Shown here in pieces: positions 9,929-25,710 of a stretch of DNA of 40,341 nt; positions within the stretch are counted from its first letter, which is position 1, and the number at the start of each line of letters is the position of its first letter. This stretch comes from Pseudomonadota bacterium. Its GTDB lineage: Bacteria; Pseudomonadota; Gammaproteobacteria; Acidithiobacillales; Acidithiobacillaceae. The DNA is taken from the NCBI GenBank assembly GCA_021821885.1, contig JAKARO010000015.1, forward strand, positions 1 to 40,341, written 5' to 3'. The position numbers were made by a program, and so were the translations under genes. The notes under the pieces were generated by a model, which made no database searches, was not told the origin of the DNA, and saw nothing but the letters and a program-made list of their open reading frames with translations.

Positions 9929-9943
9929 GCTAGAAACCTCTCC

Positions 9944-9970
9944 AAGTATCCGGCCTGTGCCTGGATACTT
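9944..9970 (-). promoter_or_regulatory. Palindrome/hairpin just upstream of the desaturase-like gene
   Basis: Perfect 8-bp arms AAGTATCC and GGATACTT are separated by 11 bases that themselves contain GGC/GCC, so a long stem is possible. It ends about 15 bases before the ATG at 9928, immediately beside the ribosome site. It could be a repressor operator or a translational hairpin. No T-run follows, so it is not an intrinsic terminator. Confidence 0.55.
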
Positions 9971-10023
9971 CAACGTAGAAAATCAGGCGGTTCCATAACC
10001 ACCATGAAACCATCGCTACCTGC

Positions 10024-10176: not shown

Positions 10177-11343
10177 TCAGTCTGCCTGCCGGCGGAGGAA
10201 GGCCGGGATGTCCAGGTCGGAATAGTCCGGCGTACCTCCGGTACCGGACCGGGAATGGGGGGCGCTGCTGCTCCGTCCCCCATGACGCAGGGCAGCCGGG
10301 CGGTCCAGCTGGCGCCAGTCGACAGCGGTCGCCGGGGTGGTGGTTTCCGGCCGGACCCGGTTGTTTTCTACGGCAAGGCGGACAGGTTCCCGCTGCAGTC
10401 CGGTCGCGACGACGGTGACCCGGAGTTCTCCTTCCATGTCCGGATCCACGACCGTGCCCACTTTGACGTTGGCGTCATCGGAGGCGTAACTGCGGATGAG
10501 TTCGCCGACTTCTTCAAATTCTCCCAGGGTGAGGTCCGGGCCGGCCGTGATGTTGACCAGAATGCCCCGGGCACCGGAAAGGTTGATGTCGTCGAGGAGG
10601 GGACTGCTGGCGGCCCGGCTGGCGGCATCCCTGGCCCGGTTCTCGCCGCGCCCGGCTGCTGTACCCATCATGGCCAGTCCCATTCCGGACATGACCGTAC
10701 GGACGTCGGCAAAGTCCAGGTTCATGAGGCCGGGCCGGGTTACAAGTTCCGAGATGCCCTGAACGGCGCCCATGAGTACGTTGTCTGCGGCCTGGTAGGC
10801 GTCCTGGAGGCTGATCTGCTTGCCCAGGACGGACAGCAGTTTCTCATTGGGAATGATGACGAGGGAGTCCACATACTGGGCGAGTTCCTCGATGCCGGCC
10901 AGGGCATGCTGCTGCCGTTTCTTGCCTTCAAAGTTGAACGGCTTGGTCACCACGCCCACCGTCAGGATATCCATGTCCCGGGCAATGGAGGCAACCACAG
11001 GTGCGGCACCGGTTCCGGTTCCACCCCCCATGCCGGTGGTGAGGAAGACCATATCGGCATTTTCAAGGGAAGCGCGGATTTCCTCCCGGCATTCTTCCGC
11101 GGCCTTGCGCCCGACGTCCGGATTGGCTCCGGCCCCCAGGCCACGGGTGAGCTGCGCGCCCAGCTGCAGGGCTCTGTGGGCCCGGGAAGAGCGCAGTGCC
11201 TGTGCGTCCGTATTGGCGCTGATGAATTCCACGCTGTCGAAGCCTGCGGATGCCATGTTGTTGATGGCATTGCAGCCCCCTCCACCGATGCCGATGACCT
11301 TGATTACCGCCCCTTCGAGTTCGCATTCGCTCAGTTCAAACAT
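10177..11343 (-). CDS. ftsZ: Cell division GTPase FtsZ
   Basis: Tubulin-like GTPase that polymerises into the Z ring at midcell and recruits the divisome. It has 388 residues. The nucleotide site is VIGIGGGGCNAINNM (16-30) and the tubulin signature GGGTGTGAAP (106-115). The synergy/T7 loop NLDFADVRTVM supplies the catalytic acidic residue. After the globular core a disordered linker rich in Pro, Ser and Arg leads to the conserved C-terminal peptide DYSDLDIPAFLRRQAD, the docking site for FtsA and other partners. A good ribosome site (AGGAGAGG) precedes the ATG. It is the last gene of the dcw operon, 62 bases after ftsA, and is followed directly by a terminator. lpxC, its usual neighbour in gammaproteobacteria, is not adjacent here. 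Confidence 0.98.
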   Translation of the reverse strand: MFELSECELEGAVIKVIGIGGGGCNAINNMASAGFDSVEFISANTDAQALRSSRAHRALQLGAQLTRGLGAGANPDVGRKAAEECREEIRASLENADMVFLTTGMGGGTGTGAAPVVASIARDMDILTVGVVTKPFNFEGKKRQQHALAGIEELAQYVDSLVIIPNEKLLSVLGKQISLQDAYQAADNVLMGAVQGISELVTRPGLMNLDFADVRTVMSGMGLAMMGTAAGRGENRARDAASRAASSPLLDDINLSGARGILVNITAGPDLTLGEFEEVGELIRSYASDDANVKVGTVVDPDMEGELRVTVVATGLQREPVRLAVENNRVRPETTTPATAVDWRQLDRPAALRHGGRSSSAPHSRSGTGGTPDYSDLDIPAFLRRQAD

Positions 11344-11405: not shown

Positions 11406-12686
11406 TCAGCCAAAGCTGGTCTGGACCCAGGAACGGATACGGCCCAGCATCCCGCCGGCAAGGCGGCCACCCCGATTGTGGTCATGGGTCGCGCTGCTGG
11501 CGGCGGCCGGAACCTGCGCCGGCTCTGCCTGGCCGGACAGGTGATTGTGTACGCCGTACATCACCAGGCCTACGCCGGTGGCATGCCATGGATTGCGGAC
11601 GACCGTTTCCATGCCGGGGAGATGCATCGGGGCACCCACCCGGACGGGCAGATGCAGGATCTCTTCGGCCAGTTCTGCAATGCCTTCCAGCTGGCTGGAA
11701 CCTCCGGTTACCACCACGCCAGCCGCCACGAGGTCTTCATAGCCCGTACGGCGGAGCTCCGCCAGAATCAGTTCAAAGAGCTCCTTGACGCGGGGCTCTA
11801 TAATGTCGTTAAGCACCCGCCGGGATACGGTCCTTGGCGGCCGGGTGCCGACGCTCGGGACGGGGATTTCGTCATCCTGCTCAATGAGATCGCCGAGTGC
11901 GCAGCCATAGAGTTTTTTGATCTGCTCGGCTTCGGCCGGCGGCGTGCGCAGGCCAAGGGCGATGTCGTTGGTGATCTGGTCCCCGGCAATAGGGATCACG
12001 GCGGTATGGCGAACTGCGCCGTCCCGGAAAATGGCAATATCGGTGGTTCCCCCACCAATATCCACGAGGCAGACTCCCAGCTCCTTCTCATCCGCGGTCA
12101 GTGTCGCATCGGCCGATGCCAGCTGTTCCAGGACAAGGCCCTGGACATGCAGGCCGCAGCGTTCGACACATTTGCTGATGTTCTGGGCGGCACTGACCGC
12201 ACCGGTAACGATATGTACCTGGGCCTCCAGGCGTACCCCGGACATCCCGATGGGGTCGCGGACCCCTTCCTGGCTATCAATCATGAACTCCTGGGGAAGG
12301 ACATGGATAACGTTCTGGTCCTGGGGAATGATAATTGCCCGGGCAGCGTCCATGACCCGGCCAATATCGTCGTTGCTGACTTCCTTGCTCTTGATCGCGA
12401 CGATGCCGTGGCTGTTGTGGCCCCGGATGTGCCCGCCGGCAATCCCCACGACCGCTCCGCGGATCTGTACGCCGGCCATGAGTTCCGCCTCCTGTACGGC
12501 GCGGGTAATGGCCTGGACGGTGGATTCAATATCCACGACCACGCCCTTTCTGAGACCGCGGGAGGGATGCTGGCCGACACCAATGATTTCTGCCTCACCG
12601 TTGCCACGGCCCTGCGCCACGATACAGGCCACCTTGGAAGTGCCGATATCCAATCCGACGATAAGTTCCTGACTGCCCCGTTTCAT
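11406..12686 (-). CDS. ftsA: Cell division protein FtsA
   Basis: Actin-like ATPase that tethers FtsZ filaments to the inner membrane. At 426 residues its length is typical. Phosphate loop 1 is VGLDIGTSKVACIVA (near 10-24). The 1C subdomain unique to FtsA includes AVVGIAGGHIRGHNSHG, the second phosphate loop is VCLVDIGGGTTDIAIF, and the adenosine motif is VVTGGSSQLEGI. The protein ends with a short amphipathic helix (MLGRIRSWVQTSF) that serves as membrane anchor. Its ATG overlaps the ftsQ stop by four bases (ATGA). It lies between ftsQ and ftsZ in the canonical order. Confidence 0.97.
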   Translation of the reverse strand: MKRGSQELIVGLDIGTSKVACIVAQGRGNGEAEIIGVGQHPSRGLRKGVVVDIESTVQAITRAVQEAELMAGVQIRGAVVGIAGGHIRGHNSHGIVAIKSKEVSNDDIGRVMDAARAIIIPQDQNVIHVLPQEFMIDSQEGVRDPIGMSGVRLEAQVHIVTGAVSAAQNISKCVERCGLHVQGLVLEQLASADATLTADEKELGVCLVDIGGGTTDIAIFRDGAVRHTAVIPIAGDQITNDIALGLRTPPAEAEQIKKLYGCALGDLIEQDDEIPVPSVGTRPPRTVSRRVLNDIIEPRVKELFELILAELRRTGYEDLVAAGVVVTGGSSQLEGIAELAEEILHLPVRVGAPMHLPGMETVVRNPWHATGVGLVMYGVHNHLSGQAEPAQVPAAASSATHDHNRGGRLAGGMLGRIRSWVQTSFG

Positions 12687-13555
12687 TTCTGTTTACTCCT
12701 TGGGATTCCTGATCCCTCTATGACGCTGGACGTGGCTGCCGTCGGCAGGGCGACAGCAAACCCGTTACTGTACCGCAGATCCATGGTAGCCCCTGGTACC
12801 AGGTATTTTCCGATTTCTGGTGCGACCCGTACCCAGCGGTGCAGGGCTGAGATCACGTGGGTCCTGCCAGGCACCAGCCGTACGCCGTTATTCAGGATGC
12901 ACCGCCAGCCCCCCCGCGGGTTTTCTTCCAGATCCGTGACGTGCAGGCCGAGTGGCGCCAGAATGGCATTGAACCGCCCAAGCTCTTTCATCATGCCTGC
13001 CCCGGCATTGGCCGGTCCGACCAGGTTGGGTAGCCCTGCCGGTATCCCACCGGGTGGAACGTGGTAGACCTGTCCGCCCGCATCCATGACCTCACCGCTA
13101 CCTCCCAGCCAGCGCGCAACGGGTGTAACTCCCCCCAGCTGGATGTCCAGCCGGTCTGGCCAGACGCGCCGGACATCGGCCGTTGCCACCCACGGAACCT
13201 GCAGCAGGGCCTGCCGGATCTGGCTGGGATCGATCCACAGGAAGCCCTGGTGGAGGTAGGGCCGCAGGGCCTGGTTGACGGCCGGAAGTCCGATGCGTGG
13301 GGAAAGTCCACGCACATGGATGGTTGAAATGGGCATGAAGGCAGGCCGCCGTACCACCTGCCAGCCCTGCCACCCACCCCAGGCCGCAGCCCCGAGTGCA
13401 CACGCCAGGAGGGCAGAGCGAAGGGTTTTTCTCCAGGGGAAGGGGACAGTCCCGCTCCTGGGGTGTTCGGCAGGAGAAGGGTCGTGCCTGGGAGGGGCTG
13501 CCTGGCCCTGGCGTGCTTCCCGGTAGTGGCGCATGTCGCGCATGACGCTAACCAT
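12683..13555 (-). CDS. ftsQ: Cell division protein FtsQ
   Basis: Bitopic inner-membrane protein of the FtsQLB complex that regulates septal peptidoglycan synthesis. The 290-residue protein has a cytoplasmic, charged N-terminus (~1-45) and one transmembrane segment (LRSALLACALGAAAWGGW, about 46-63). The POTRA domain follows, starting with ISTIHVRGLSPRIG and including VPWVATADVRRVWPDRLDIQL. The C-terminal beta domain contains WRCILNNGVRLVPG and MDLRYSNGFAVAL, typical of the family. The ATG at 13555 has a strong ribosome site (GGAGGAC, six bases). It overlaps ddl by eight bases upstream and ftsA by four bases downstream. Confidence 0.95.
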   Translation of the reverse strand: MVSVMRDMRHYREARQGQAAPPRHDPSPAEHPRSGTVPFPWRKTLRSALLACALGAAAWGGWQGWQVVRRPAFMPISTIHVRGLSPRIGLPAVNQALRPYLHQGFLWIDPSQIRQALLQVPWVATADVRRVWPDRLDIQLGGVTPVARWLGGSGEVMDAGGQVYHVPPGGIPAGLPNLVGPANAGAGMMKELGRFNAILAPLGLHVTDLEENPRGGWRCILNNGVRLVPGRTHVISALHRWVRVAPEIGKYLVPGATMDLRYSNGFAVALPTAATSSVIEGSGIPRSKQK

Positions 13556-14471
13556 GCCGTGTCCTCCCCAGAGTGGCTTGCAGAATATCCAGGCAGAGGT
13601 CTGCCAGATCCTGGCCGGCGGCCCGGGCCGCCATCGGGACCAGACTGTGGCTGGTCATTCCAGGAACGCTGTTGATTTCCAGGAGATAGGGACGCCCGGT
13701 GGCATCAACCAGAAAATCGACCCGGCCCCAGTCGCGCCCGCCAATTTCGGAAAATGCCTGCAGGGCAAGGGTCTGCAGCCGCTGTTCCACCGGTCCGGGA
13801 AGACCCGATGGAAGGAGGTAGCGGGTCTCTGTGGACTCATACTTGGCGTGGTAGTCATAGAACGGACGGCTGGTACGGATGGCAATGGGGGGCAGTGCCC
13901 GGCCGCCCACTATGCCGACCGTGACTTCCTCTCCGGTGATGCCCTGCTCTACCAGAATTTCCTCATCCAGCAGAAAGGCAGCCTGGATTGCGGGTTCCAG
14001 TGCTTCTGCGCTGTCTACCCGGCTGACACCAAGACTCGAACCGGCGCGGTTGGGCTTGACAAAAAGGGGCCAGGACCGGTCTTCTGTCCCCGGGATGGCA
14101 TCGCCCTGGCGCAGCAGGATCCCCCGGGTGACTGGCAGTCCTGCCGCTTCCCAGAGACGTTTGCTGCGCCATTTGTCCATGGACAGGGCACTGGCCAGGA
14201 CCCCGCTGCCGGTATAGGGGATTCCCTCCGCTTCAAGGCACGCCTGAAGAATGCCATCCTCGCCAAAGGTACCATGACAGACATTGAAGGCGAGCTTCGC
14301 CCGGCTTTCCTGCAGCTGCTGGTGGATCTGCCGCGGGTCCGCGTCTATGCCCACCACATCCAGTCCCCGGCCAGCCAGCGCCGTGAGGACCGCAGCGCCA
14401 CTTTCCAGCGAGACTGCGCGTTCTCCCGAGGGGCCGCCATGGAGTACCGCAATGCGTGGCCAGTCAGACAT
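13548..14471 (-). CDS. ddl: D-alanine--D-alanine ligase
   Basis: ATP-grasp ligase that makes D-Ala-D-Ala for the pentapeptide stem. It has 307 residues, the DdlB size. The N-terminal signature is IAVLHGGPSGERAVSLESG (7-25), and the CHGTFGEDGILQ loop follows. ATP-grasp elements are PLFVKPNRAGSSLGVSRV, EILVEQGITGEEVTVGI and the metal-binding LLEINSVPGMTSHS near the C-terminus. A strong ribosome site (GGAGGAAACGG) precedes the ATG. It overlaps the murB stop by eight bases upstream and the ftsQ start by eight bases downstream, so it is deeply embedded in the dcw operon. Confidence 0.97.
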   Translation of the reverse strand: MSDWPRIAVLHGGPSGERAVSLESGAAVLTALAGRGLDVVGIDADPRQIHQQLQESRAKLAFNVCHGTFGEDGILQACLEAEGIPYTGSGVLASALSMDKWRSKRLWEAAGLPVTRGILLRQGDAIPGTEDRSWPLFVKPNRAGSSLGVSRVDSAEALEPAIQAAFLLDEEILVEQGITGEEVTVGIVGGRALPPIAIRTSRPFYDYHAKYESTETRYLLPSGLPGPVEQRLQTLALQAFSEIGGRDWGRVDFLVDATGRPYLLEINSVPGMTSHSLVPMAARAAGQDLADLCLDILQATLGRTRHG

Positions 14472-15354
14472 CCGTTTCCTCCTCCCCGATCACCCGCATT
14501 TCGGGAATGAGGGATACCCCCGACTGCCGGCATACGGTCTCCTGGACTTCCCGGACCAGTGCTTCCACCTGCCAGGCCCTGGCCTCACCACGGTTGATAA
14601 TGAAATTCGCATGCTGTGCGCTGATTTCAGCGTCACCAATGCGCATTCCCTTGAGTCCGGCAGCCTCGATCAGCCGGGCCGCAAAATCCCCCGGAGGATT
14701 GCGGAATACCGAGCCGCAGCTCGGCCAGGCCAGAGGCTGCGTGGTAGCCCGGCGTTCCTGCCACTGGCGCAGGCGGGCCATTACCGCTGCCGGATCTTCC
14801 GGCTGGAGGCGCAGTCCTGCACGGACAAAACAGTTTTCCCCCTGCCCCGTTACTTCCCGGTACCCCGTGTCTATGGCGCTGCGGGGGAGGCGGACCAGTT
14901 CTCCCGTAACCGACAGGATTTCCACCCATTCCACGAAATCCCAGGTTTCTCCCCCGTTTGCCCCCGCATTCATGGCCAGGCATCCGCCCAGGGTACCCGG
15001 AATGCCGGCCAGAAATTCTGCACCGGCGAGTCCCAGCCGGGCCGCAAAATGTGCCAGTTTCACCGCGCCGGTTCCCGCACCGGCGACAATCCGTTCCAGC
15101 CCTTCCTGGTGCAGGCTGTCCAGTCCATGCGCAAGACAGATGACCGTTCCGCGGATGCCCCCATCCCGGACCAGCACGTTGCTCCCCAGTCCCATCCAGG
15201 TGATGGGGGGAACAGCGTAGCTGCGCAGGAAGGCAGCAAGGTCTGCGACAGTCGACGGGAGATAGAACCGGTCGGCGGAACCGCCGATCCGCCAGCTGGT
15301 ATGGCGGGCCAGGGATTCTCCAAGCCGCAGGCGGCCGCCGCTGTCCCGGCTCAT
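14464..15354 (-). CDS. murB: UDP-N-acetylenolpyruvoylglucosamine reductase
   Basis: FAD enzyme that reduces UDP-GlcNAc-enolpyruvate to UDP-MurNAc with NADPH. With the start at 15354 it has 296 residues. FAD-binding elements are HTSWRIGGSADRFYLP, MGLGSNVLVRDGGIRG and GAGTGAVKLAHFAARLGLAG. The next block is EFLAGIPGTLGGCLAMNAGANGG, and the catalytic Ser/Glu region includes WPSCGSVFRNP and SAQHANFIIN. This short-loop form corresponds to type II MurB (Gram-positive and many proteobacteria) rather than the longer E. coli type I. The ATG at 15354 overlaps the murC stop by four bases; an alternative Met at 15384 would overlap more and adds only basic residues. Confidence 0.95.
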   Translation of the reverse strand: MSRDSGGRLRLGESLARHTSWRIGGSADRFYLPSTVADLAAFLRSYAVPPITWMGLGSNVLVRDGGIRGTVICLAHGLDSLHQEGLERIVAGAGTGAVKLAHFAARLGLAGAEFLAGIPGTLGGCLAMNAGANGGETWDFVEWVEILSVTGELVRLPRSAIDTGYREVTGQGENCFVRAGLRLQPEDPAAVMARLRQWQERRATTQPLAWPSCGSVFRNPPGDFAARLIEAAGLKGMRIGDAEISAQHANFIINRGEARAWQVEALVREVQETVCRQSGVSLIPEMRVIGEEETDV

Positions 15355-16745
15355 GGGACGTCTCCGGAGAACAGGGAATGCCACTGGCCGGCCAGCTGGG
15401 CAATGCTTCCGGCTCCCATGGTCAGCAGAACGGCCCCTTCCGGAAGCTGGGCCAGGATCTGCTGTGGCTGTTCCAGGGCTTCTGGCAGGTGGCGCACGTC
15501 TGCACCGTGCCGGCGGAGGGCCCCGGCCAGATGGCCGGAACTGATACCGGCCAGGGGGGATTCGCCGGCGGCATAGACATCCAGGAGGATGATCCGGTCG
15601 GCCTCCGCCAGCACCTGTACAAAATCGTCAAAAAGGTCACGGGTGCGGCTGTAACGGTGGGGCTGGAAGGCGACGGCCAGTGGGCGCCCGGGCCAGACGC
15701 TGCGCGCGGCCGCCAGCGTCGCGGCGATTTCCCGGGGATGGTGGCCGTAGTCGTCCACAATGGTAATGCCTCCCCAGTCTCCCAGAAGTTCAAAGCGGCG
15801 GCTTACGCCCCGGAAATCTGCCAGGGCCTGGCGGATGGTCCCGGCATTTACCCCGACTTTGGCGGCTATGCCCAGGGCGGCCAGCGCGTTAAGAACGTTG
15901 TGCCGCCCCGGAACGCCCAGTTCGAGGTCCAGCCAGTGGACTGGACGGCCGTCGATCCGCCGCCAGGCCTCAAACCTGCTGCCCATGCCGGCAGAATGGA
16001 GGTTGCGGGCCTGCAGGTCCGCCGATTCGGAAAAACCGTACCCCAGTACCGGTGTCCGCAGTTCCGGAATCAGGTCCTTCACCATGGGATCGTCCGTGCA
16101 GAGCACGGCTAGGCCATAAAAGGGCAGGCGCTGCAGAAACTGCAGGAAGGCGGCACGGAGCGCGTCCATGCTTCCTCCATAGGTGTCCATGTGGTCAGCA
16201 TCAATATTGGTGACTACAGCCATTACGGGTGCAAGATAGAGGAAGGAGGCATCGGACTCGTCCGCCTCCGCCACGAGGTATTCCCCGCTGCCCAGGGCGG
16301 CATGGGTGCCGGCGCTTTTCAGGCGTCCCCCGATGACAAAGGTCGGATCAAGACCGGCTGCCGCCAGGAGGCTGGCCACCAGGCTCGTGGTTGTGGTCTT
16401 GCCATGGGTGCCGGCAATGGCAATTCCTTGCCGGAACCGCATGAGTTCGGCAAGCATTTCGGCCCGACGGATTACGGGAATCCGCTGTTCCCGGGCTGCG
16501 ATGATTTCAGGATTTTTTTCCGGGATGGCCGAAGAGACCACAATCACGTCGGCGCCCCGCACATTTGCCGCTTCGTGACCACTGAAAATGCGGGCCCCAA
16601 GGTCGGCGAGCCGCAGGGTGGCCGGACTGGCCCGGAGATCCGACCCGGAGACAGCGTACCCGAGATTGAGCAGAACCTCGGCAATGCCGCGCATCCCGCT
16701 GCCGCCAATGCCAACCATGTGAATCTGCCGTACCCAGTTACGCAT
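15351..16745 (-). CDS. murC: UDP-N-acetylmuramate--L-alanine ligase
   Basis: Adds the first stem residue, L-Ala, to UDP-MurNAc with ATP. It has 464 residues. The N-terminal UDP-binding domain has HMVGIGGSGMRGIAEVL (9-25). The P-loop is IAGTHGKTTTTSLVA, then EADESDASFLYL and TNIDADHMDTY carry the metal- and carbamate-region residues. The C-terminal domain has FRGVSRRFELLG, VDDYGHHPREIAATL and FQPHRYSRT, all diagnostic for MurC. The start at 16745 overlaps the murG stop by eight bases. The in-frame extension to 16928 is antisense-like within murG and is rejected. Confidence 0.97.
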   Translation of the reverse strand: MRNWVRQIHMVGIGGSGMRGIAEVLLNLGYAVSGSDLRASPATLRLADLGARIFSGHEAANVRGADVIVVSSAIPEKNPEIIAAREQRIPVIRRAEMLAELMRFRQGIAIAGTHGKTTTTSLVASLLAAAGLDPTFVIGGRLKSAGTHAALGSGEYLVAEADESDASFLYLAPVMAVVTNIDADHMDTYGGSMDALRAAFLQFLQRLPFYGLAVLCTDDPMVKDLIPELRTPVLGYGFSESADLQARNLHSAGMGSRFEAWRRIDGRPVHWLDLELGVPGRHNVLNALAALGIAAKVGVNAGTIRQALADFRGVSRRFELLGDWGGITIVDDYGHHPREIAATLAAARSVWPGRPLAVAFQPHRYSRTRDLFDDFVQVLAEADRIILLDVYAAGESPLAGISSGHLAGALRRHGADVRHLPEALEQPQQILAQLPEGAVLLTMGAGSIAQLAGQWHSLFSGDVP

Positions 16746-17811
16746 GCCGCACCTCCATGCAGGCATGGGCCACCTGTGTGGCGGCATCCGTCCTGGCGAC
16801 GGACCGGGCTGATTTCGCCCACTGCAGGCGCAGTAGGGGGTCCTGCAGCAGAGGCAGGAGGACATCCCGCAGACGGGGGCCGTCCAGAAGCTCCTGCCGC
16901 AGCATGCGTCCCGCGCCGGCATTTTCAAGAAACCGGGCGTTCACCGCCTGGTGATCGTCGGTTGCGTGGGGGAAAGGAATGAGGAGAGCCCCGAGGCCTG
17001 CGGCCGCCAGTTCTGCTACCGTAGCGGCTCCGGACCGGCAAATGGCGAGATCTGCCCAGCCGAGAGCTGCGGCCATATCGTCGATAAAGGGCTCCACCCT
17101 TGCGGTCACGCCGGCTTCGGCGTAGGCGGCCTGCACAGCCGGAAAGTCCTCCCGTCCAGTCTGGTGCCTGATTTCTGGCAGCAGACTGCCGGCAAGGTCC
17201 GAAAACGCCGAAACACAGAGGCGATTGAGGACCCTGGCTCCCTGGCTCCCACCAATGACCAGTACCCGGACGGGTCCGCTGCGGCCAGCAAACCGCAGGG
17301 CCGGGTCGGGCAGGGCGGCAATTTCAGCCCGCACGGGGTTGCCCACCCACCGGGCGTGGGGCAGTCCGCTGTCCGGGAACCCGGTGAAGACGCCGCGGGC
17401 GAAACGGGCCAGCAGGCGGTTGCTCATGCCGGAGATGGAATTCTGTTCGTGGAGAAACAGGGGGCGCCGCAGGGTCCAGGCGGCGATGCCTACTGGTGCC
17501 GAAACATAACCGCCCATGCCGAGCACGACTTCACTCCGGCATTCCCGGATGATCTGGCGTGCCTGGTGGATAGCCCTGCCCAGAAGCCAGGGGGCCCGCA
17601 GCCAGCGTAACCAGCCCTTTCCGCGCAGGCCCTGCATTTCCAGCAGGTGGAGGGGGTACCCCCGCTCCGGTACCAGCCGCGATTCCAGGCCCCGGGCGGT
17701 TCCGGCAAAATTGACCTGGCAGCCCGCCTCGCGCAGTACGTCCGCTACCGCCAGGGCCGGGAAAATATGCCCTCCGGTACCACCAGCCGCAATCAGGATC
17801 CGCTCAGCCAT
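16738..17811 (-). CDS. murG: Lipid II synthase, UDP-GlcNAc transferase MurG
   Basis: Membrane-associated GT28 enzyme that transfers GlcNAc to lipid I, making lipid II on the inner leaflet. It has 357 residues. The acceptor loop is ILIAAGGTGGHIFPALAVAD (5-24). Also visible are VLGMGGYVSAPVGIAAW, PLFLHEQNSISGMSNRLLA and the second glycine loop VIGGSQGARVLN. The donor-site signature is CRSGAATVAELAAAGLGALLIPFPHATDDHQ. The ATG at 17811 starts eight bases inside the ftsW 3' end. All family motifs are intact and the length is typical. Confidence 0.97.
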   Translation of the reverse strand: MAERILIAAGGTGGHIFPALAVADVLREAGCQVNFAGTARGLESRLVPERGYPLHLLEMQGLRGKGWLRWLRAPWLLGRAIHQARQIIRECRSEVVLGMGGYVSAPVGIAAWTLRRPLFLHEQNSISGMSNRLLARFARGVFTGFPDSGLPHARWVGNPVRAEIAALPDPALRFAGRSGPVRVLVIGGSQGARVLNRLCVSAFSDLAGSLLPEIRHQTGREDFPAVQAAYAEAGVTARVEPFIDDMAAALGWADLAICRSGAATVAELAAAGLGALLIPFPHATDDHQAVNARFLENAGAGRMLRQELLDGPRLRDVLLPLLQDPLLRLQWAKSARSVARTDAATQVAHACMEVRHA

Positions 17812-18976
17812 GGCGGGCCTCCGTAGACCGGGCAGGAGCCGGATGCCGGGCGGGGGGATAGCGGCGGCTGACGGCCAGGACGACGCCCAGGGTGGCACAG
17901 AGAAAAACCAGGGCACTGCCGCCATAACTGATCAGGGGCAGGGCAAACCCCTTGGTAGGCAGGGCTCCCAGGTTGACGCCCATGGACAGCACGGCTTCAC
18001 CACCGAACCAGATCAGGGAGCCGTAGCAGAAGAGGGCGTAAAAGGAATCCCCGGCCGCCGCGGCGCGCTGGCCGATCCGGAAGATCCGCCAGCTTGCTGC
18101 GGCATAGAGCATCGCCAGGGACCAGACTCCGACCATGCCCAGCTCCTCTCCGATTACGGCCAGAATAAAATCGGTATAGGACTCTGGAAGGTAGAAATAT
18201 TTCATGATGCCATTGCCCAGGCCCACCCCAAAAATGCCACCGCGTCCAAAGGCGATGAGGGACTGCACCAGCTGGAAACCGGTGCCGTAGGGGCTGGCCC
18301 AGGGATTCTGGAAGGCCGTGAGGCGCGCAAGCCGGTAGGGAGCGGATACTGCCAGAAGACTCAGGACACCTCCGGCGAACAGGCCGGCCATGGCCACATA
18401 CCGCAATGGAAGCCCTCCAAGGAAAAGCAGGATGCCGGTAATGGCAACCACCATTGCATATGAACCAAAATCTGGCTGGAGCAGCAGCAGGACACCCAGG
18501 ACGGTGAGGACAACGAAGATGGGCCAGATTCCTTCCCAGAATTTCCCCAGTACCTGGCCCTTGCGTACGACATAGCGTGATATGAACAGCAGCAGGGCAA
18601 ACTTGAGCAGTTCCGAGGGCTGGAGACGGACCACCAGAAAGTTGATCCAGCGGTGCGAGCCATTGACGGACACGCCCAGTACCGGCAGGAAAACAGCCAT
18701 GAGGGCGACCAGGGAGAGTCCCATGAGCGGCAGGGTCATGCGCTCCCAGAATGCGAGATCAATACGGCTGAAATAGTAAAGCACCCCCAGCCCCAGAGTG
18801 GCATAGATGGCCTGCCGTCCGGCAAAAAAGAGCGGATTTCCGGTTTCGTGCTGGGCAATGGGCGCGCTGGCCGAATAGACCATCACGAGGCCAAAGCCGA
18901 TGAGGGTAATGAGAATCCACCAGAGCATGGTGTCCGCCCGGCCCTCCTCCGCCAGCCACCAGGAAGGCCTATGCAT
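17804..18976 (-). CDS. ftsW: Septal peptidoglycan glycosyltransferase FtsW (SEDS)
   Basis: Polytopic SEDS-family polymerase that elongates septal glycan from lipid II together with the class B PBP FtsI. The 390-residue protein has about ten membrane helices. SEDS landmarks are VMVYSASAPIA in TM1, GSHRWINFLVVRLQPSELLKF-like sequence around residues 110-130, LLLQPDFGS carrying the catalytic Asp region, and YLPESYTDFILAVIGEELG. The C-terminal PTKGFALPLISYGGSAL is equally typical. It overlaps murD and murG by eight bases each. No ftsI partner is encoded in this cluster, so its cognate transpeptidase must be encoded elsewhere. Confidence 0.96.
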   Translation of the reverse strand: MHRPSWWLAEEGRADTMLWWILITLIGFGLVMVYSASAPIAQHETGNPLFFAGRQAIYATLGLGVLYYFSRIDLAFWERMTLPLMGLSLVALMAVFLPVLGVSVNGSHRWINFLVVRLQPSELLKFALLLFISRYVVRKGQVLGKFWEGIWPIFVVLTVLGVLLLLQPDFGSYAMVVAITGILLFLGGLPLRYVAMAGLFAGGVLSLLAVSAPYRLARLTAFQNPWASPYGTGFQLVQSLIAFGRGGIFGVGLGNGIMKYFYLPESYTDFILAVIGEELGMVGVWSLAMLYAAASWRIFRIGQRAAAAGDSFYALFCYGSLIWFGGEAVLSMGVNLGALPTKGFALPLISYGGSALVFLCATLGVVLAVSRRYPPARHPAPARSTEARHG

Positions 18977-20333
18977 GGCGTGCCTCCCCCAGGGCAGCCA
19001 CCGCACGGGCGAACTGCCGGCCCCGGTCCTGGTAGTCCTGGAACATGTCGGTGCTGGCGCACGCAGGGGACAGCAGGACCTGGTCCCCGGGCCTGGCCAG
19101 CTCTGCCGCCAGGGCGACCGCCGTTTCCATGCCCTGGCGGCCGGCATGCCGCAGGGGCAGTGCTCCCTCCAGAACCGCAGCGAGGTGGTCCGCGTCACGG
19201 CCCAGCAGGACCGCACCCCGGTGCCCTGCACAGGCAGCCCTCAGGGGAGAAAGATCGGCCCCCTTGGCGTCGCCGCCCAGGATGAGCACCAGCGGGCCAG
19301 GGAGGGCGGCCATTGCCCGCAGACTGGCTCCAAGATTGGTTCCCTTGGAATCGTCGTAATAGTCCGTGCCGTGCACCTGCCCGACCCACTGCAGGCGGTG
19401 GGGTAACCCTGGAAATTCCTGGAGGGCCTGACGGACCGGACCAGCAGGAATCCCCAGCGCTCTGGCCATGAGCGCTGCGGCCAGGGCATTTTCCAGATTG
19501 TGCCGCCCCCGGATTTTTAGGGATTCCGCCGCCACCAGCGGGCCGGTTTCCTGAAGGTGCAGGTGACCGTCGTGTATCCATCCGTCCGGCTTTCCGATGC
19601 CGCCGAAATGCCGCACACGCGGTCCTGCGGCCGGTTTCCCCGCCGATTGCAGCAGCCGCGTGTCTTCTCCGTTCAGTACCAGGGTGTCTTCCGGTCCCAT
19701 ATTGCGGAAGACGCGGAGCTTGTCCCGGATATAGCTGTCATAGTCGCCATGCCAGTCGAGATGGTCGGGGCTGAGATTCAGGATGGCCGATACCCGGGGA
19801 TGGAAGCTCTGTGTGTAGTGGAGCTGGAAACTCGAAACTTCAATCACATACAGTGCCGGCGATGGTTCGCCAGGACCGGGCAGCAGGTCCAGCGCCGGAG
19901 TGCCCAGGTTGCCACCCACCGCCGTGTGCCATCCGGCTGCCCTGGCCATTTCCCCGAGCAGCGTCGTGACAGTGCTTTTGCCATTGCTTCCAGTGATCGC
20001 AGCGACCGGTGCCTGGGCCAGCTGCCCAAAAAGTTCTATATCTCCGACAACCGGGATTCCTTCTGCCCTGGCACGGGCAATGGCAGGAAGCTGGGGGGAG
20101 AGCCCGGGGCTGCTCAGGATGAGGTCCGCTCCAGTCAGGGCATTTGCGTCAAGGGGGCCAAAGTGGAACGTGGCTTCCGGATAGCGCTGTTCCCATTCCC
20201 GGCTGTCCAGATGGGTGCGGGTATCAAAAACCGTGCAGCGCCCCCCCTGGCTGGAGGCGTGGCGCAGCAGGGTTTCCCCGGTTTTCCCGAGGCCCAGTAT
20301 GCGGATATCCCTGCCATTCCAGAGTCTGTCCAT
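18969..20333 (-). CDS. murD: UDP-N-acetylmuramoylalanine--D-glutamate ligase
   Basis: Adds D-Glu to UDP-MurNAc-L-Ala. It has 454 residues. The N-terminal Rossmann part reads IRILGLGKTGETLLRHA and LILSSPGLSP. The central ATP domain has the P-loop AAITGSNGKSTVTTLLG, VIEVSSFQL and LNLSPDHLDWHGDYDSYI followed by RDKLRVF, which carries the carbamylated Lys. The C-terminal domain has DDSKGTNLGAS and LLSPACASTDMFQDYQDRG, specific for MurD. The ATG lies one base after the mraY stop codon. All key residues are present. Confidence 0.97.
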   Translation of the reverse strand: MDRLWNGRDIRILGLGKTGETLLRHASSQGGRCTVFDTRTHLDSREWEQRYPEATFHFGPLDANALTGADLILSSPGLSPQLPAIARARAEGIPVVGDIELFGQLAQAPVAAITGSNGKSTVTTLLGEMARAAGWHTAVGGNLGTPALDLLPGPGEPSPALYVIEVSSFQLHYTQSFHPRVSAILNLSPDHLDWHGDYDSYIRDKLRVFRNMGPEDTLVLNGEDTRLLQSAGKPAAGPRVRHFGGIGKPDGWIHDGHLHLQETGPLVAAESLKIRGRHNLENALAAALMARALGIPAGPVRQALQEFPGLPHRLQWVGQVHGTDYYDDSKGTNLGASLRAMAALPGPLVLILGGDAKGADLSPLRAACAGHRGAVLLGRDADHLAAVLEGALPLRHAGRQGMETAVALAAELARPGDQVLLSPACASTDMFQDYQDRGRQFARAVAALGEARHA

Positions 20334-20334
20334 G

Positions 20335-21417
20335 TCAGCGTATCTTCAGGCTGGAGAGGCCAATGAGCACCAGGATCACGGTAATGATCCAGAACCGGAC
20401 GGCGACCCGGGGTTCAGGCCACCCTTTTTTCTCGTAGTGGTGATGGATGGGGGCCATGCGGAACACCCGCTTTCCGGTTAGGCGGAAAGACGCCACCTGG
20501 ATCATGACCGACAGGGTTTCCACGACAAAAACGCCACCCATGATTACCAGGACCAGTTCCTGCCGGGCGATGATGGCCACTACCGCGAGGGCGGCACCAA
20601 GCGCCAGGGCCCCGGTGTCTCCCATGAAGACCTCGGCGGGATAGGTGTTGAACCAGAGGAAGCCCAGACCTGCGCCCACCAGTGCGCCGCAGAAAATCAG
20701 CATCTGTCCGGAACCGGGAACCCAGGGCACTTCGAGATAATGGGAAAAAACCGCGTTTCCGGACACATAGGCAAATATGCCCAGTGCGCCAGCGACCATG
20801 ACAGTGGGTACGATGGCCAGTCCATCAAGTCCGTCTGTCAGGTTTACCGCGTTGGAGGTGCCCACGATGACGAAATAGCTGAACACAATGTAGCCCAGCC
20901 CCAGAGGAATCAGGACGTGAGGGACAAAGGGAATGATCAGGCTGGTTTCCACGGGAGTCCGGGCCAGGGAATAGAGGGCGGCCGCGGTACCCAGGGCTAC
21001 GGCCGACTGCAGGCCGTATTTGGCTCTGGCCGAGAGTCCGCGACTGTTCCTGCGGACCAGCTTTCTCCAGTCGTCAATGAAACCAATGGCGCCAAAAGCA
21101 CAGGTGGTTGCGGTGGCCACCCATACCAGGGGATTCCCGAGATCCGACCACAGGAGAGTGGTAATCAGGACTACAACCAGGATCAGCGCCCCACCCATGG
21201 TGGGTGTCCCCTGCTTGCTCAGATGGGTTTCCGGACCATCGGTCCGCACCATCTGGCCAATCTTGTACTGGCGCAGGCGGGCAATGGCCAGTGGTCCCAG
21301 GGACAGGGAAAGGACAAGGGCCGTAAGGATGGACAGCACCCCACGCAGGGTCAGGTACGAAAAGACGTGGAACCCGTGGTAGACGCCCTGGAGCTGCAGA
21401 AAAAGGTAATACAGCAT
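20335..21417 (-). CDS. mraY: Phospho-N-acetylmuramoyl-pentapeptide transferase
   Basis: Integral membrane enzyme that transfers phospho-MurNAc-pentapeptide to undecaprenyl phosphate, forming lipid I. The 360-residue protein has about ten membrane helices. Family signatures are [27 protein letters not shown] carrying the Asp pair, [34 protein letters not shown], and the histidine motif [15 protein letters not shown] near 325-339. The start directly follows the murF stop (TAGATG). No departures from the family were noticed. Confidence 0.98.
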
Positions 21418-22764
21418 CTAGCCTTCCTCCACCAGCGCGCTGGCAACCCTTTCCATGTGCGCAGCCCTGGAGCCCTTGACCAGAATGGTTGTTTGCCTGC
21501 CCAGTACAGGCTCCATGGCCCGCAACAGGTCTTCTAGTCCGGAAAAGGCGTGGGCCCCGGTACCGAAGCTTTCGGCCGCCGCGCGGGAGAGATCGCCGAG
21601 GGTAAAAAGCCCCTCGATGCCCAGCTGCTTCAGCCGCATGCCGGCCTGGTGATGGTAGAGGGCCGCATCCGGTCCGAGCTCCCCCATATCCCCCAGGACC
21701 AGGTAGCGCTGCCCGGGCTGCTGCGCCAGAACCTGTATGGCCGCCTCAAGGGAGGCCGGATTGGCGTTGTAGCTGTCGTCCAGGATCCGGGTTCCCAGCC
21801 GTCCCGGACGCCAGCGCAGGCGGCCCGGTACGCCGTCCAGGTGGGCAATGGCACGGCTGATGTGTGCCGGGGGGATGTCGAGTGCCAGGGCTGCCGTTGC
21901 AGCGGCAAGGACATTGGCACCGTTGTGTTTTCCTGGAAGGGGGATGTCCACAGAAAACTGGCCCTGGGGTGCACGGATTTCCATCCGGCCTCCCGTCTCG
22001 GCAGGCTGCCACGATCCCCGTACCCGGACTGGACGGTCTTCCATGCTGAAGAGCCAGACCTCTCCGGAGGCCTGTCCCTTCCAGTAGTCCGCATAGGAAT
22101 CGTCGCCGTTGAGTACCGCAATCCCGCGCTCCTGGAGTCCCACCAGAATTTCCCCTTTGGCGGCAGCAACTGCCGCAATGCTTCCGAGGCCTTCCAGATG
22201 TGCGGCTGCCGCGTTGTTGATGATGGCGATTCCGGGAGCGGCCATCCGGCTGAGGAGAGTCAGTTCCCCGGCATGGTTCATGCCCATTTCAATGACCGCA
22301 TGGCGGTGCTCTTTCCCCATCTGTGAAAGTGTGAGGGGTACGCCGATGTGATTGTTGAGGTTTCCCCGTGTGGCAAGTACCTCGCCAGACTCGCGCAGAA
22401 TGGCCGCGAGGATTTCCTTGACCGTTGTCTTGCCACAGGACCCGGTGACTGCCAGCACCGGGATCCGGAATTGCTGCCGCCAGTGCGCGGCAAGGCGCTG
22501 GAAGGCTTCCAGACTGTTTCCGGCGAGTACCCCTGGCGCATCGGACGGGCGCTCGGCCAGTACGGCGGCAGCGCCCTGCGCCATGGCCTGGGAGACGAAA
22601 TCATGGGCATCGAAATGCTCGCCACGCAGCGCAACAAAAAGGGCACCGGGAATCATTTTGCGCGTGTCCGTGACCACGCCCCGAACCCGGAGGCCGCCCG
22701 CACTGCCTGGCAGAAGGCAGCCACCGGTAATGCGGGCGATTTCGCTCAGGGTATAGGTCAGCAT
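21418..22764 (-). CDS. murF: UDP-MurNAc-tripeptide--D-Ala-D-Ala ligase
   Basis: Attaches D-Ala-D-Ala, made by Ddl, to the UDP-MurNAc-tripeptide. It has 448 residues. The N-terminal substrate-binding domain contains VVTDTRKMIPGALFVALRG (31-49). The ATP site is VTGSCGKTTVKEILAAIL, where most relatives have a Ser or Val at the Cys position. TRGNLNNHIGVPLTL, VIEMGMNHAGEL and LDDSYNANPASLEAAI are family-specific. The ATG starts seven bases inside the murE end, and the stop abuts the mraY start. Confidence 0.97.
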   Translation of the reverse strand: MLTYTLSEIARITGGCLLPGSAGGLRVRGVVTDTRKMIPGALFVALRGEHFDAHDFVSQAMAQGAAAVLAERPSDAPGVLAGNSLEAFQRLAAHWRQQFRIPVLAVTGSCGKTTVKEILAAILRESGEVLATRGNLNNHIGVPLTLSQMGKEHRHAVIEMGMNHAGELTLLSRMAAPGIAIINNAAAAHLEGLGSIAAVAAAKGEILVGLQERGIAVLNGDDSYADYWKGQASGEVWLFSMEDRPVRVRGSWQPAETGGRMEIRAPQGQFSVDIPLPGKHNGANVLAAATAALALDIPPAHISRAIAHLDGVPGRLRWRPGRLGTRILDDSYNANPASLEAAIQVLAQQPGQRYLVLGDMGELGPDAALYHHQAGMRLKQLGIEGLFTLGDLSRAAAESFGTGAHAFSGLEDLLRAMEPVLGRQTTILVKGSRAAHMERVASALVEEG

Positions 22765-24203
22765 GTCTGCAGGGCTTCCCTTGCGGTCTCCGCATCACTA
22801 AATGGAAGCCGCTGTCCTGCGGTATCCTGGAAGGTTTCGTGGCCTTTGCCGGCAATAAGGACCCAGTCGCCGGCAGCCGCTCCGGCAATGGCCGACCGGA
22901 TGGCCGAACGCCGGTCGTGCTGCACGGCTGCCGCGCCGGCCGGCATGCCGGACAGGATCTGTCCGACGATATGTTCCGGGTTCTCTCCCCTCGGGTTGTC
23001 GTCCGTAACGATGGTCCGGTCGGCCAGCCGCGCGGCAATGGCACCCATCTGCGGACGTTTGCCCGGGTCGCGCTCCCCACCGCAGCCGAACACTACCGTG
23101 ACCTGCCCCTTGGCCACATCGCGCAGGTCGGCAAGTACCCGTTCCAGGGCATCGGGGGTGTGGGCGTAGTCTATCAGAACCTGGGGACGGCCAGGCTGGG
23201 GCTCCAGCCGCTGGTATCGGCCTGGGGGAAGGGAAAGGCCGGCAATCTGCGCATCCTCCGTAGACCATCCCAGACTGTCGGCACATGCCAGCGCAGCGAG
23301 CAGGTTGCTGGCATTGCTTCTGCCGAGAAACGGACTGCGCAGCTGACGGCGGCCATGGGGCGTCTCCAGTACCAGGAAGGTCCCGCTGGCGCCGGGATGG
23401 TATTCCTGGATCCGGTAGTCACCGGCGCTGAAACCAAAGCGGCGGATTTCCATTTTGCCGGCAAGTCCTGCAGACAGGGCCTGCCCGAGGGGATCTTCTG
23501 CATTGAGGATGGCCAGACGCATCTCGGGCGTGTCGAAAAGCCGGGCCTTGGCCTGTCCGTAGTGTTCCATGTCTCCATGAAAGTCGAGATGGTCCTGGCT
23601 GAGATTCAGAAAAATGCCCACGCCAAAGGGGATCGCCGCCACACGCCCGAGTGCCAGGGCGTGGGAAGACACTTCCATGGCCACGGCCGTCGCTCCGGCC
23701 CTGCGGGAGCGGTCAAGAAGTTCCCAGAGGGTAACGGCTTCCGGAGTGGTGTTGGGGAGTGGTTCCCGGGCTCCAGGACAGCCGTAGCCCAGGGTGCCGA
23801 CCAGATGGGCGGGAGCGGGAGCCAGCTGGGCCAGCAGCCAGGCGACGCTGCTTTTGCCGTTGGTGCCCGTGATCCCGATGATTGTGGGTGTCTCTCCATG
23901 GTCCCAGGCATGCCAGCGGCGAAGACCCAGACCCAGCAGCTGGCGGGCATCGGGCCGGATCCAGACCGGCCGGCCATGGTCTGCCGTGGCGGTTGCGGGA
24001 GATCCCTCCAGCAGGGCTCCGCCGGCTCCGGCTGCCCACGCAGCACCAAGAAACTGGCGTGCATCGCCATGCCGGTTTTCGAGGCCAACGAAAAGCATGT
24101 TCTTCTGTAGCCGACGGCTGTCGCTGTCCAGTCCGGAAATCCGGAAATCCGCTGGAGGCGCCAGCTCGGGCAGGATGGCGGCGAGCGGTTCAATGTGTGG
24201 CAT
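22758..24203 (-). CDS. murE: UDP-MurNAc-L-Ala-D-Glu--meso-diaminopimelate ligase
   Basis: Adds the third stem residue. The motif TDDNPRGENPEHI contains the DNPR signature of meso-diaminopimelate-specific enzymes (lysine enzymes differ), as expected for a Gram-negative. It has 481 residues. The P-loop is IGITGTNGKSSVAWLL, followed by NTTPEAVTLWELL, VAMEVSSHALALGRV, LNLSQDHLDFHGDMEHY and the C-terminal VIDYAHTPDALE-type region. The ATG at 24203 is chosen because AGAAGGAG lies seven bases upstream and family similarity begins there. A 64-codon in-frame extension upstream is not MurE-like. The first bases overlap a short ORF at the place where ftsI is normally found. Confidence 0.97.
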   Translation of the reverse strand: MPHIEPLAAILPELAPPADFRISGLDSDSRRLQKNMLFVGLENRHGDARQFLGAAWAAGAGGALLEGSPATATADHGRPVWIRPDARQLLGLGLRRWHAWDHGETPTIIGITGTNGKSSVAWLLAQLAPAPAHLVGTLGYGCPGAREPLPNTTPEAVTLWELLDRSRRAGATAVAMEVSSHALALGRVAAIPFGVGIFLNLSQDHLDFHGDMEHYGQAKARLFDTPEMRLAILNAEDPLGQALSAGLAGKMEIRRFGFSAGDYRIQEYHPGASGTFLVLETPHGRRQLRSPFLGRSNASNLLAALACADSLGWSTEDAQIAGLSLPPGRYQRLEPQPGRPQVLIDYAHTPDALERVLADLRDVAKGQVTVVFGCGGERDPGKRPQMGAIAARLADRTIVTDDNPRGENPEHIVGQILSGMPAGAAAVQHDRRSAIRSAIAGAAAGDWVLIAGKGHETFQDTAGQRLPFSDAETAREALQTC

Positions 24204-24489
24204 CGCCGGCTCCTTCTGGCCGAAAACCCTGCCGCACCCTACTGGCACGGAGCTTTCTGTGGCCTGCCACAGGACCGTCAGACACGGCTCCGGCCTTTGC
24301 GGGGAGCCTGCGCGGGTGGCGCTGCGCGCCACGGGCACGCAGAAAATGGGAGTGTTCCATCGGCTCCCGCCAGGGCTGGAACCGGGGATTGGCAAATCCC
24401 GCCGCTGTCTGCCCCATCAGGGCCGGCGTCCGCCATCCCGGAAGGGGGGCGGGCTGCTGCCAGGGGATAGAGGCGGACAAGGCTCTCAC
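24190..24489 (-). pseudogene. 99-codon ORF at the ftsI position, possible ftsI remnant
   Basis: A GTG start overlaps the ftsL stop (GTGA), and the ORF runs into the murE start, exactly where ftsI (about 1.7 kb) normally sits. The translation has no penicillin-binding domain: no SxxK, SxN or KTG motif and no clear membrane helix. A faint match to the FtsI N-terminal region is visible. HFLRARGAQRHPRRLPAKAG followed by AVSDG can be laid on the family pattern FLxxxGxxRxxRxxxxPAxRGxIxDRNG, with the key RG and DRNG residues degraded. I read it as a possible vestige left by a deletion, kept as a translational bridge to murE. It could also be a chance ORF. Confidence 0.35.
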
Positions 24490-24746
24490 CGGGACTGCAC
24501 CATCACGGTCTGGCTGTTCTTGGGGGCCGAGAGGCCAAGTTTATGGGCAATGTCCCCGACCCGGGTGTTGGAGGACAGGGTCGCCTGTTCAAGCTGCAGC
24601 TGGCCCCAGCGGTTGTCGAGGGCAAAGATGCGGGACTGCGCGGACTGGATGCGGATGAACTGGGCACGGCTGCTCTCCCGGGCGCCTACGATCCCCAGCA
24701 GGGTCAAGGTAACCAGAGTGGCCAGAACCAGGGTGCTATGTCGCAT
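24486..24746 (-). CDS. ftsL: Cell division protein FtsL
   Basis: Small bitopic protein (86 residues) of the FtsQLB divisome subcomplex. A very short cytoplasmic tail is followed by one transmembrane helix (about 5-21, STLVLATLVTLTLLGIVGA). A periplasmic coiled-coil follows with the pattern RIQSAQSRIFALDNRWGQLQLEQATL, in which aliphatic residues recur at heptad spacing. The C-terminal VGDIAHKLGLSAP is typical of the family. The ATG at 24746 overlaps the rsmH stop by 11 bases. Identification rests on size, topology and position, since FtsL sequence is poorly conserved. Confidence 0.88.
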   Translation of the reverse strand: MRHSTLVLATLVTLTLLGIVGARESSRAQFIRIQSAQSRIFALDNRWGQLQLEQATLSSNTRVGDIAHKLGLSAPKNSQTVMVQSR

Positions 24747-25710
24747 GGGCGATCTCCGGGTTTTTGGTGGCGTACCGCAGGGTGGCTGACCGGGCCCTGG
24801 GGTTGGCACGCATTTCTTCTGCAGAAGCCTTTATGGCCCGGGAAATGCCGGTCCATGGCCGGGGGGGGAGTTCGGTGCTGCGCAGGGGGATCCGGTGGTC
24901 CGGCTGCTGTTCCTCGGCGCGAAAGAATCTCTTCACGATGCGGTCTTCCAGGGAATGAAAACTGATGATCGCCAGCCGTCCGCCCGGGCGCAGGGCCCGG
25001 AAGGCCTGGGGCAGGAAGCGCTGGAGCTGTCCGAGCTCATCGTTGATGTGGATGCGGATGGCCTGGAAGGTGCGGGTGGCCGGATGGATGCCGGGCGCAC
25101 GCTGGGGGAGCAGTCCGGCGATCAGGTCCGCAAGGTCCCGGGTCCGCAGCAGTGGAGCGTCCTCGCGTCTGCGGACGATGGCCTGGGCGATGGCACGGGC
25201 TGCGCCCTCCTCCCCAAAATCGCGCAGGACCTGCGAGATCTCGCGTGCCCCGGCTTCTGACAGCCATTCCGCCGCCGACTGGCCTTCGCCGGGATTCATT
25301 CGCATGTCGAGCGGACCATCACGGAGAAAACTGAATCCCCGTGCCGCATCGTCCAGCTGGGGGGAGGAAACCCCAAGATCGGCCAGAATGGCATCCACCC
25401 GTCCTGCGAGCGCCGCGCCAGAGAGGATCTGCTCCAGGCGGTCAAACCGTTCCTGGAAGAGCGAAACACGGGGGTCGCCGCCAAAACGGCTGGCGAGTGC
25501 GGCAATGGCTTCAGGATCGCGGTCCAGGATGATGAGCCGGTCGCCTGGTTCCATGCGGTCCAGGAGGGCTGCACTGTGTCCGCCGCGCCCTCCCGTGGCA
25601 TCCACCACATGGCGGGGATGGAGGCCTTCCATCGCTGGCCCGAGCGCCCCGCAGACCTCTTCCAGCAGGACCGGACTGTGGGCGGCGGCCGGCGCCCCTG
25701 ATGCCGCCAT
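24736..25710 (-). CDS. rsmH: 16S rRNA (cytosine1402-N4)-methyltransferase RsmH
   Basis: SAM-dependent methyltransferase acting on C1402 in the decoding centre of 16S rRNA (formerly mraW). It has 324 residues. Family blocks are HSPVLLEEVCGAL at the N-terminus, VVDATGGRGGHSAALLD (the SAM loop), ILADLGVSSPQLDDAARGFSF, DGPLDMRMN and FQAIRIHINDELGQL. The C-terminal GGRLAIISFHSLEDRIVKRFF and RARSATLR are equally diagnostic. The ATG shares one base with the mraZ stop (TGATG). A longer in-frame reading that continues through mraZ is a shadow and is rejected. Confidence 0.97.
   Translation of the reverse strand: MAASGAPAAAHSPVLLEEVCGALGPAMEGLHPRHVVDATGGRGGHSAALLDRMEPGDRLIILDRDPEAIAALASRFGGDPRVSLFQERFDRLEQILSGAALAGRVDAILADLGVSSPQLDDAARGFSFLRDGPLDMRMNPGEGQSAAEWLSEAGAREISQVLRDFGEEGAARAIAQAIVRRREDAPLLRTRDLADLIAGLLPQRAPGIHPATRTFQAIRIHINDELGQLQRFLPQAFRALRPGGRLAIISFHSLEDRIVKRFFRAEEQQPDHRIPLRSTELPPRPWTGISRAIKASAEEMRANPRARSATLRYATKNPEIAHAT

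Follow-up and report, generated by a model that had tools for sequence, protein, structure and literature searches.

The copy of ftsI in the dcw cluster, a gene treated as essential and as a fixture of that cluster, appears to have been lost naturally in the genome studied here, leaving a paralog as the only FtsI of the assembly. We consider it about 80% probable that the dcw protein (FtsI of clade C, FtsI-C) was lost by an in-frame deletion, that the stump left behind then decayed, and that the paralog (clade A, FtsI-A) alone now carries out septal transpeptidation. A more specific reading, put forward tentatively and at a little less than even odds, would be that a free-living proteobacterium has discarded its dcw FtsI, that its sole septal transpeptidase belongs to an acid-built FtsI line (with an SSD motif, likely disulfide-forming cysteines and Val at the K211 position) translationally coupled to an orphan protein with one transmembrane (TM) segment (“family II”), and that the broken gene serves as an in-frame bridge between ftsL and murE. 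If true, this natural loss would mean that an old paralog can take the place of the usual FtsW partner, and the genome would offer a second FtsI line for study without its twin.

The ftsI position of the dcw cluster

The window, the whole 40,341-nt stretch of DNA analysed, is contig C29 of a draft genome (G000; 1.74 Mb, 43 contigs, 91.46% complete) and carries the dcw cluster on its minus strand (Table 1). The first-pass annotation had placed a 99-codon ORF where ftsI is expected, between ftsL and murE, and an ORF of 99 aa with a GTG start was indeed present there. The space free of flanking genes, given earlier as about 240 bp, exists but measures 282 bp (from the ftsL end at 24486 to the murE ATG at 24203), and is occupied by this ORF. 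The remark that FtsW stays in the cluster without its cognate PBP also held, as only a stump of ftsI accompanies ftsW. mraZ and mraW, presumably, lie upstream in the cluster (both named by sequence and gene order).

A degraded match to the N-terminal region of FtsI had been proposed for the ORF, and this match proved to be above chance. With an HMM built from 19 dcw FtsI proteins of relatives (17 of the family and 2 of the order), the frame scored 32.5 bits, with codons 12-68 aligned to dcw FtsI, whereas 300 codon shuffles, read in six frames, reached 3.9 bits at most. A second HMM, of 56 FtsI proteins, was searched against the 630 stop-to-stop frames of at least 30 codons in the six frames of the window; the stump frame was its sole match at E up to 1 (E 1.2e-5). 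In tblastn with the dcw FtsI of relatives, the top match to the stump had an E value of 5e-13 (database size set to 100 kb), and the best 15 rows, which covered overlapping stretches, showed 37-52% identity over 50-71 residues, the highest being 52% over 50 residues.

Both junctions of the ORF are those of a native ftsI, which bears out the earlier suggestion that it once linked ftsL and murE. The ftsL stop and the ftsI start overlap as (A/G)TGA in the window (GTGA) and in all 17 family rows. At the other end, the last 14 nt of the gene, stop codon included, begin with an ATG in the window, in E. coli (where murE is annotated to start there) and in 15 of the 16 family rows that contain the ftsI 3' end; in G001 the ftsI/murE overlap is 8 nt. 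Intact FtsI-C proteins of the family have 578-595 aa (n=16), and thus 479-496 codons are gone from the 99-codon stump, in frame. No Pfam or NCBIfam domain was matched in the ORF, in keeping with the catalytic part having been noted as absent. The 3' end gave less signal: when its last 127 nt before murE were aligned as DNA to complete ftsI-C genes, they outscored every one of 30 shuffles in a single row of 18, and on its own the end scored -2.3 bits against the FtsI HMM (not significant). It is identified by the junction and final codons that it shares with intact ftsI; these codons also contain the murE ribosome-binding site, likely GAAGGAG. In relatives (L065-L080), the codons of the ftsI C-terminus WAEGAGD include a GAAGGAG-like ribosome-binding site immediately ahead of the murE ATG.

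Taken by homology in place and in frame, loss of the catalytic domain and signs of relaxed constraint, the ORF is an ftsI pseudogene, namely an internally deleted dcw ftsI of clade C.

Table 1. Features of the dcw cluster in the window (positions in the window; ORFs of ftsL and ftsW are given with the earliest start).
Feature	Position	Strand	Basis or remark
ftsI-C stump, 99-codon ORF, GTG start	24190..24489	-	keeps the start and stop of native ftsI but lacks 479-496 internal codons
stump part homologous to the beginning of FtsI (cytosolic end, TM, start of pedestal)	24286..24444	-	tblastn; some of the top rows cover 46-204 of the interval; hydrophobicity of the TM lost
stump 3' end, EGAGDATH and stop	24190..24216	-	carries GAAGGAG; overlaps the murE ATG by 14 nt
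ftsL	24486..24809	-	TIGR02209, 63.7 bits (cut-off 42.45); true start probably the ATG of MRHSTLV
murE	22758..24203	-	profile scan
murF	21418..22764	-	Mur ligase domains; name from gene order
mraY	20335..21417	-	Glycos_transf_4; name from gene order
murD	18969..20333	-	MurD-like_N and Mur ligase domains
ftsW	17804..19231	-	SEDS partner without its dcw-encoded PBP
murG	16738..17925	-	glycosyltransferase family 28 domains; name from gene order
murC	15351..16928	-	Mur ligase domains; name from gene order
murB	14464..15384	-	domain scan
ddl	13548..14471	-	domain scan
ftsQ	12683..13555	-	domain scan
ftsA	11406..12686	-	domain scan
ftsZ	10177..11343	-	domain scan

Decay of the remnant

Several measures indicate that the stump is decaying. 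These comparisons used 16 intact homologs, leaving out the G015 gene (cut by a contig end) and two order-level rows, with three proteins trimmed to the start overlapping ftsL. The hydrophobicity of the membrane helix was lost: the best 19-residue hydropathy was 0.17 in the stump vs. 1.13-2.17 in the intact homologs. Ten of 13 aligned invariant columns were kept, vs. 23/23 to 23/26 in each of the intact homologs, counted over a longer stretch than in the stump, and the HMM score was 35.4 bits vs. 65.8-92.8 bits for leave-one-out fragments of the same 16 proteins. Composition across codon positions was flattened, with a second-position GC of 0.64, compared with 0.50-0.54 over codons 1-70 of six genus mates. 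Between the stump and the 16 homologs, differences at second positions amounted to 0.32-0.52; they averaged 0.32 (0.21-0.41) in 69 intact pairs under 55% identity; since the two ranges overlap, this measure alone is not decisive.

By base composition, such a frame would stay open in about 14% of sequences under a single-base model and in 24% of 5000 Markov draws; multiplied by the one-in-three chance for the frame of the deletion, this gives roughly 5-8% together. The open frame with its native start and stop speaks for a working short protein, for example a helper of FtsW or FtsL, an explanation that we nevertheless regard as improbable: no membrane helix remains in the 99-aa product, codon-position composition is flattened, second-position changes are on the high side, and bridging between ftsL and murE would explain an open frame without any working product. 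The new role that the first-pass annotation had offered for the product is likewise unsupported, because the membrane helix and some conserved residues have been lost. The open frame may perhaps persist as a bridge carrying ribosomes from ftsL to the murE start, which we give as a suggestion only, because composition would keep the frame open as often as stated above.

Decay of the stump also argues against a plain assembly gap. The missing 1.5 kb might be an artefact of assembly or of strain mixing, with an intact ftsI at this locus in the organism, and a draft genome in 43 contigs that is the lone exception among 26 genomes invites this explanation. A dropped segment, however, would leave sound ends, whereas the N-terminal end of the stump is without its membrane helix and some conserved residues, while the branch lengths of murE, ftsL and ftsW are not unusual. 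An artefact is accordingly given a low probability, slightly below that of a working short protein.

FtsI clades in the family

A tree of 56 FtsI proteins and MrdA contained three groups: clade A (18 rows, 96/92), clade B (19 rows, 100/98) and clade C, the dcw proteins (19 rows, 100/100). Genomes of the family carry up to three of these clades. Clade C was found in 27 of the 29 family genomes searched, the exceptions being G000, with the stump, and G005, a 61% complete close relative in which neither ftsI-C nor murE was found and the locus is missing. Wherever murE was contained in a family genome, ftsI-C adjoined it (25 of 26), with G000 as the sole exception. FtsI-A was present in 28 of the 29 genomes; it was missing only in G012 (71% complete), which has no row in the clade A set. 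The FtsI-A proteins of G005 and of the window genome were 93% identical, and FtsI-A shared 45-51% identity with the dcw FtsI of 17 family genomes. In one relative (G037:C94:6727-8449) FtsI-A is split over two frames, through a frameshift or an assembly error.

The G000 assembly itself contained clade A only, on another contig than dcw, and gave no match to a clade B or clade C FtsI. The whole-genome search for class B PBPs advised in the annotation yielded three PF00905 proteins: a single FtsI-like one, outside dcw (contig C19), MrdA (C28) and a frame of 862 aa (C22). The option that a divergent PBP replaces ftsI therefore fits, as the clade A paralog is the only FtsI found in the assembly. 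With the genome 91.46% complete, a second FtsI could lie in a gap, and an intact clade C ftsI might have moved to an unassembled part. Such a move is very improbable: the assembly gave no clade C or B match, and each of the 27 family genomes with clade C had one such match, 25 of them beside murE and the other two (G011 and G015) on a contig that gave no murE match, the G015 gene running off its contig.

Among the literature matches listed, neither the loss of dcw ftsI in a proteobacterium nor FtsI clades of Acidithiobacillus were found in titles and the beginnings of abstracts.

Sequence and predicted fold of FtsI-A

FtsI-A has the Transpeptidase (PF00905, 207.9 bits) and PBP_dimer (PF03717, 58.3 bits) domains, and its SXXK (SVMK) and KTG (KTGT) motifs are intact. 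The SXN motif differs between clades: SSD in 18 of 18 clade A rows, SSC in 19 of 19 clade B rows and SSN in 19 of 19 clade C rows, and FtsI-A thus lacks the Asn in third place. Clades with Asn, Asp and Cys at this place would be a ready test of the role of the residue in acid. The third-place Cys of clade B (L113-L131, from relatives) looks unusual; in the Zn-binding PBPs of C. difficile, Cys is reported as the middle residue of SXN, not the third (PMC9334274).

NCBIfam scores were 325.5 bits for PenA, 323.5 for FtsI (below the curated cut-off of 737), 271.6 for SpoVD and 240.2 for MrdA. The best PDB chain by sequence was an FtsI (354.5 bits), and the best-scoring solved chains were FtsI/PBP3. 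A structural model built with 38 rows of clades A, B and C reached pLDDT 88.8 and pTM 0.84 (an earlier one with 13 clade A rows gave pLDDT 45.2), and among the Foldseek matches listed for it 50 of 50 were PBP3/FtsI, mostly named P. aeruginosa and including chain B of the FtsWIQBL complex. By sequence and predicted fold, FtsI-A resembles FtsI more than it does MrdA.

Clade A has seven invariant cysteines (266, 274, 320, 327, 461, 555 and 560), which may form disulfides. Cys 266, 274 and 560 also occur in 19 of 19 clade B rows and Cys 320 and 327 in 17 of 19 clade C rows, Cys 555 in 7 of 19 clade B rows, and Cys 461 in clade A only. In E. coli FtsI numbering, G57, R60 and R71 are conserved in the 18 clade A rows, whereas D76 is replaced by Ala or Gly, R167 by Thr or Ser and K211 by Val; the G000 protein has Ala at D76 and Thr at R167. 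K211I is a hyperactive allele of E. coli FtsI, and because other K211 substitutions are reported not to rescue FtsN loss (PMC8078798), the Val of clade A is only a lead.

These departures from a canonical FtsI (SSD, Ala for D76, Thr for R167 and the low NCBIfam score) count against a septal role for FtsI-A. Septal cross-linking could instead be done by MrdA (PBP2) or another PBP, with FtsI-A doing something else; both MrdA and the 862-aa PF00905 frame are at hand, and C. difficile is described as dividing without a canonical FtsW/FtsI pair (PMC10693644). We rate this as very unlikely, since FtsW, FtsQ, FtsL and an FtsB-type protein are kept and FtsI-A stands nearer to FtsI than to MrdA. The divisome genes present in G000 were those for FtsZ, FtsA, FtsQ, FtsW, FtsL, the FtsB-type protein and two SPOR-domain proteins; of the two SEDS proteins that the genome encodes, one is the FtsW of dcw and the other lies elsewhere. 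Faster evolution of FtsI-A, FtsW or FtsL, which might mark a switch of partner, was not clearly seen in trees: the ratios read from them, path of the window lineage to path of G006, were about 1.2 for FtsI-A, 0.93 for FtsW, 0.77 for FtsL and 1.06 for MurE.

Genomic context of FtsI-A

The FtsI-A gene of G000 lies at G000:C19:14991-16736, and the ORF upstream of it has matches in 16 of 17 relatives. The suggestion that ftsI had moved was rejected: FtsI-A is not a displaced dcw ftsI, because its neighbourhood is shared with relatives that retain clade C in dcw as well.

Its stop codon overlaps, as GTGA, the start of a 103-aa orphan protein with a hydrophobic N-terminal stretch, which was found in 28 of the 29 family genomes and directly after FtsI-A in all 28. 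In one relative (L095:6737-7048 onward) GTGA and ATGA overlaps link FtsI-A, the 103-aa protein and a third small ORF, an arrangement like that of one translationally coupled operon. In the same relative (L095:6710-6740) FtsI-A ends in WAEGGGGK before this protein, resembling the WAEGAGD/ribosome-binding-site end of ftsI-C. By length and neighbours, not by sequence, the 103-aa protein fits the orphan “family II” of Acidithiobacillus, described as 103 aa long with one TM segment and drawn near ftsI, ispB and an ABC gene (PMC5186765). Such orphan families are called absent from Thermithiobacillus in that paper, the relevant passages of which make no mention of several FtsI clades or of the loss of a dcw copy.

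Proposed course of events and comparison with known systems

Under the preferred reading, FtsI-A would already have shared septal transpeptidation in acid beside FtsI-C, so that FtsI-C could be lost. An in-frame internal deletion would then have removed most of the dcw ftsI-C in this Acidithiobacillaceae lineage, the remaining stump would have decayed, and its retained open frame may perhaps bridge translation from ftsL to murE. FtsI-A would now pair with the FtsW still encoded in dcw. We infer that FtsI-A works with FtsW at the septum, that it already did while FtsI-C was still there, and that the living population truly carries the deletion.

Compared with a dcw FtsI (PBP3), FtsI-A has the same domains, predicted fold, SXXK and KTG, and the stump is a broken copy of the dcw gene. 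Unlike a dcw FtsI, it is encoded outside dcw, has SSD for SSN, is without Asp76 and Arg167, and has seven invariant cysteines. Its nearest precedent would be PBP3SAL of Salmonella, an acid-specific FtsI paralog, also encoded outside dcw; in the absence of ftsI it is reported to be able to sustain division by itself at pH 5.8 or below, and its second motif is given as SXN/D (PMC5736910). Salmonella naturally has both genes, whereas here the dcw copy is naturally broken, and its two copies share 63% identity (PMC5736910) vs. 45-51% for FtsI-A and FtsI-C. PBP3PARA of Klebsiella is likewise an acid-inducible paralog of a division PBP but is found beside PBP3, and the abstract describes no loss (PMC13251458). 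In Clostridioides difficile, too, the dcw-encoded PBP is reported not to supply vegetative septal synthesis; there, however, the dcw genes serve sporulation, whereas here ftsW is kept and ftsI is broken (PMC10693644).

Other observations in the window

Two further regions of the minus strand were noted. The gene after ftsZ (9074-9973) gave weak AurF and EncFtn-like matches; lpxC, which is often located after ftsZ, was not seen there among the window ORFs scanned. An 858-aa open frame at 18-2594, with no Pfam match at E 1e-5, lies opposite a 937-aa plus-strand frame and is probably a shadow frame.
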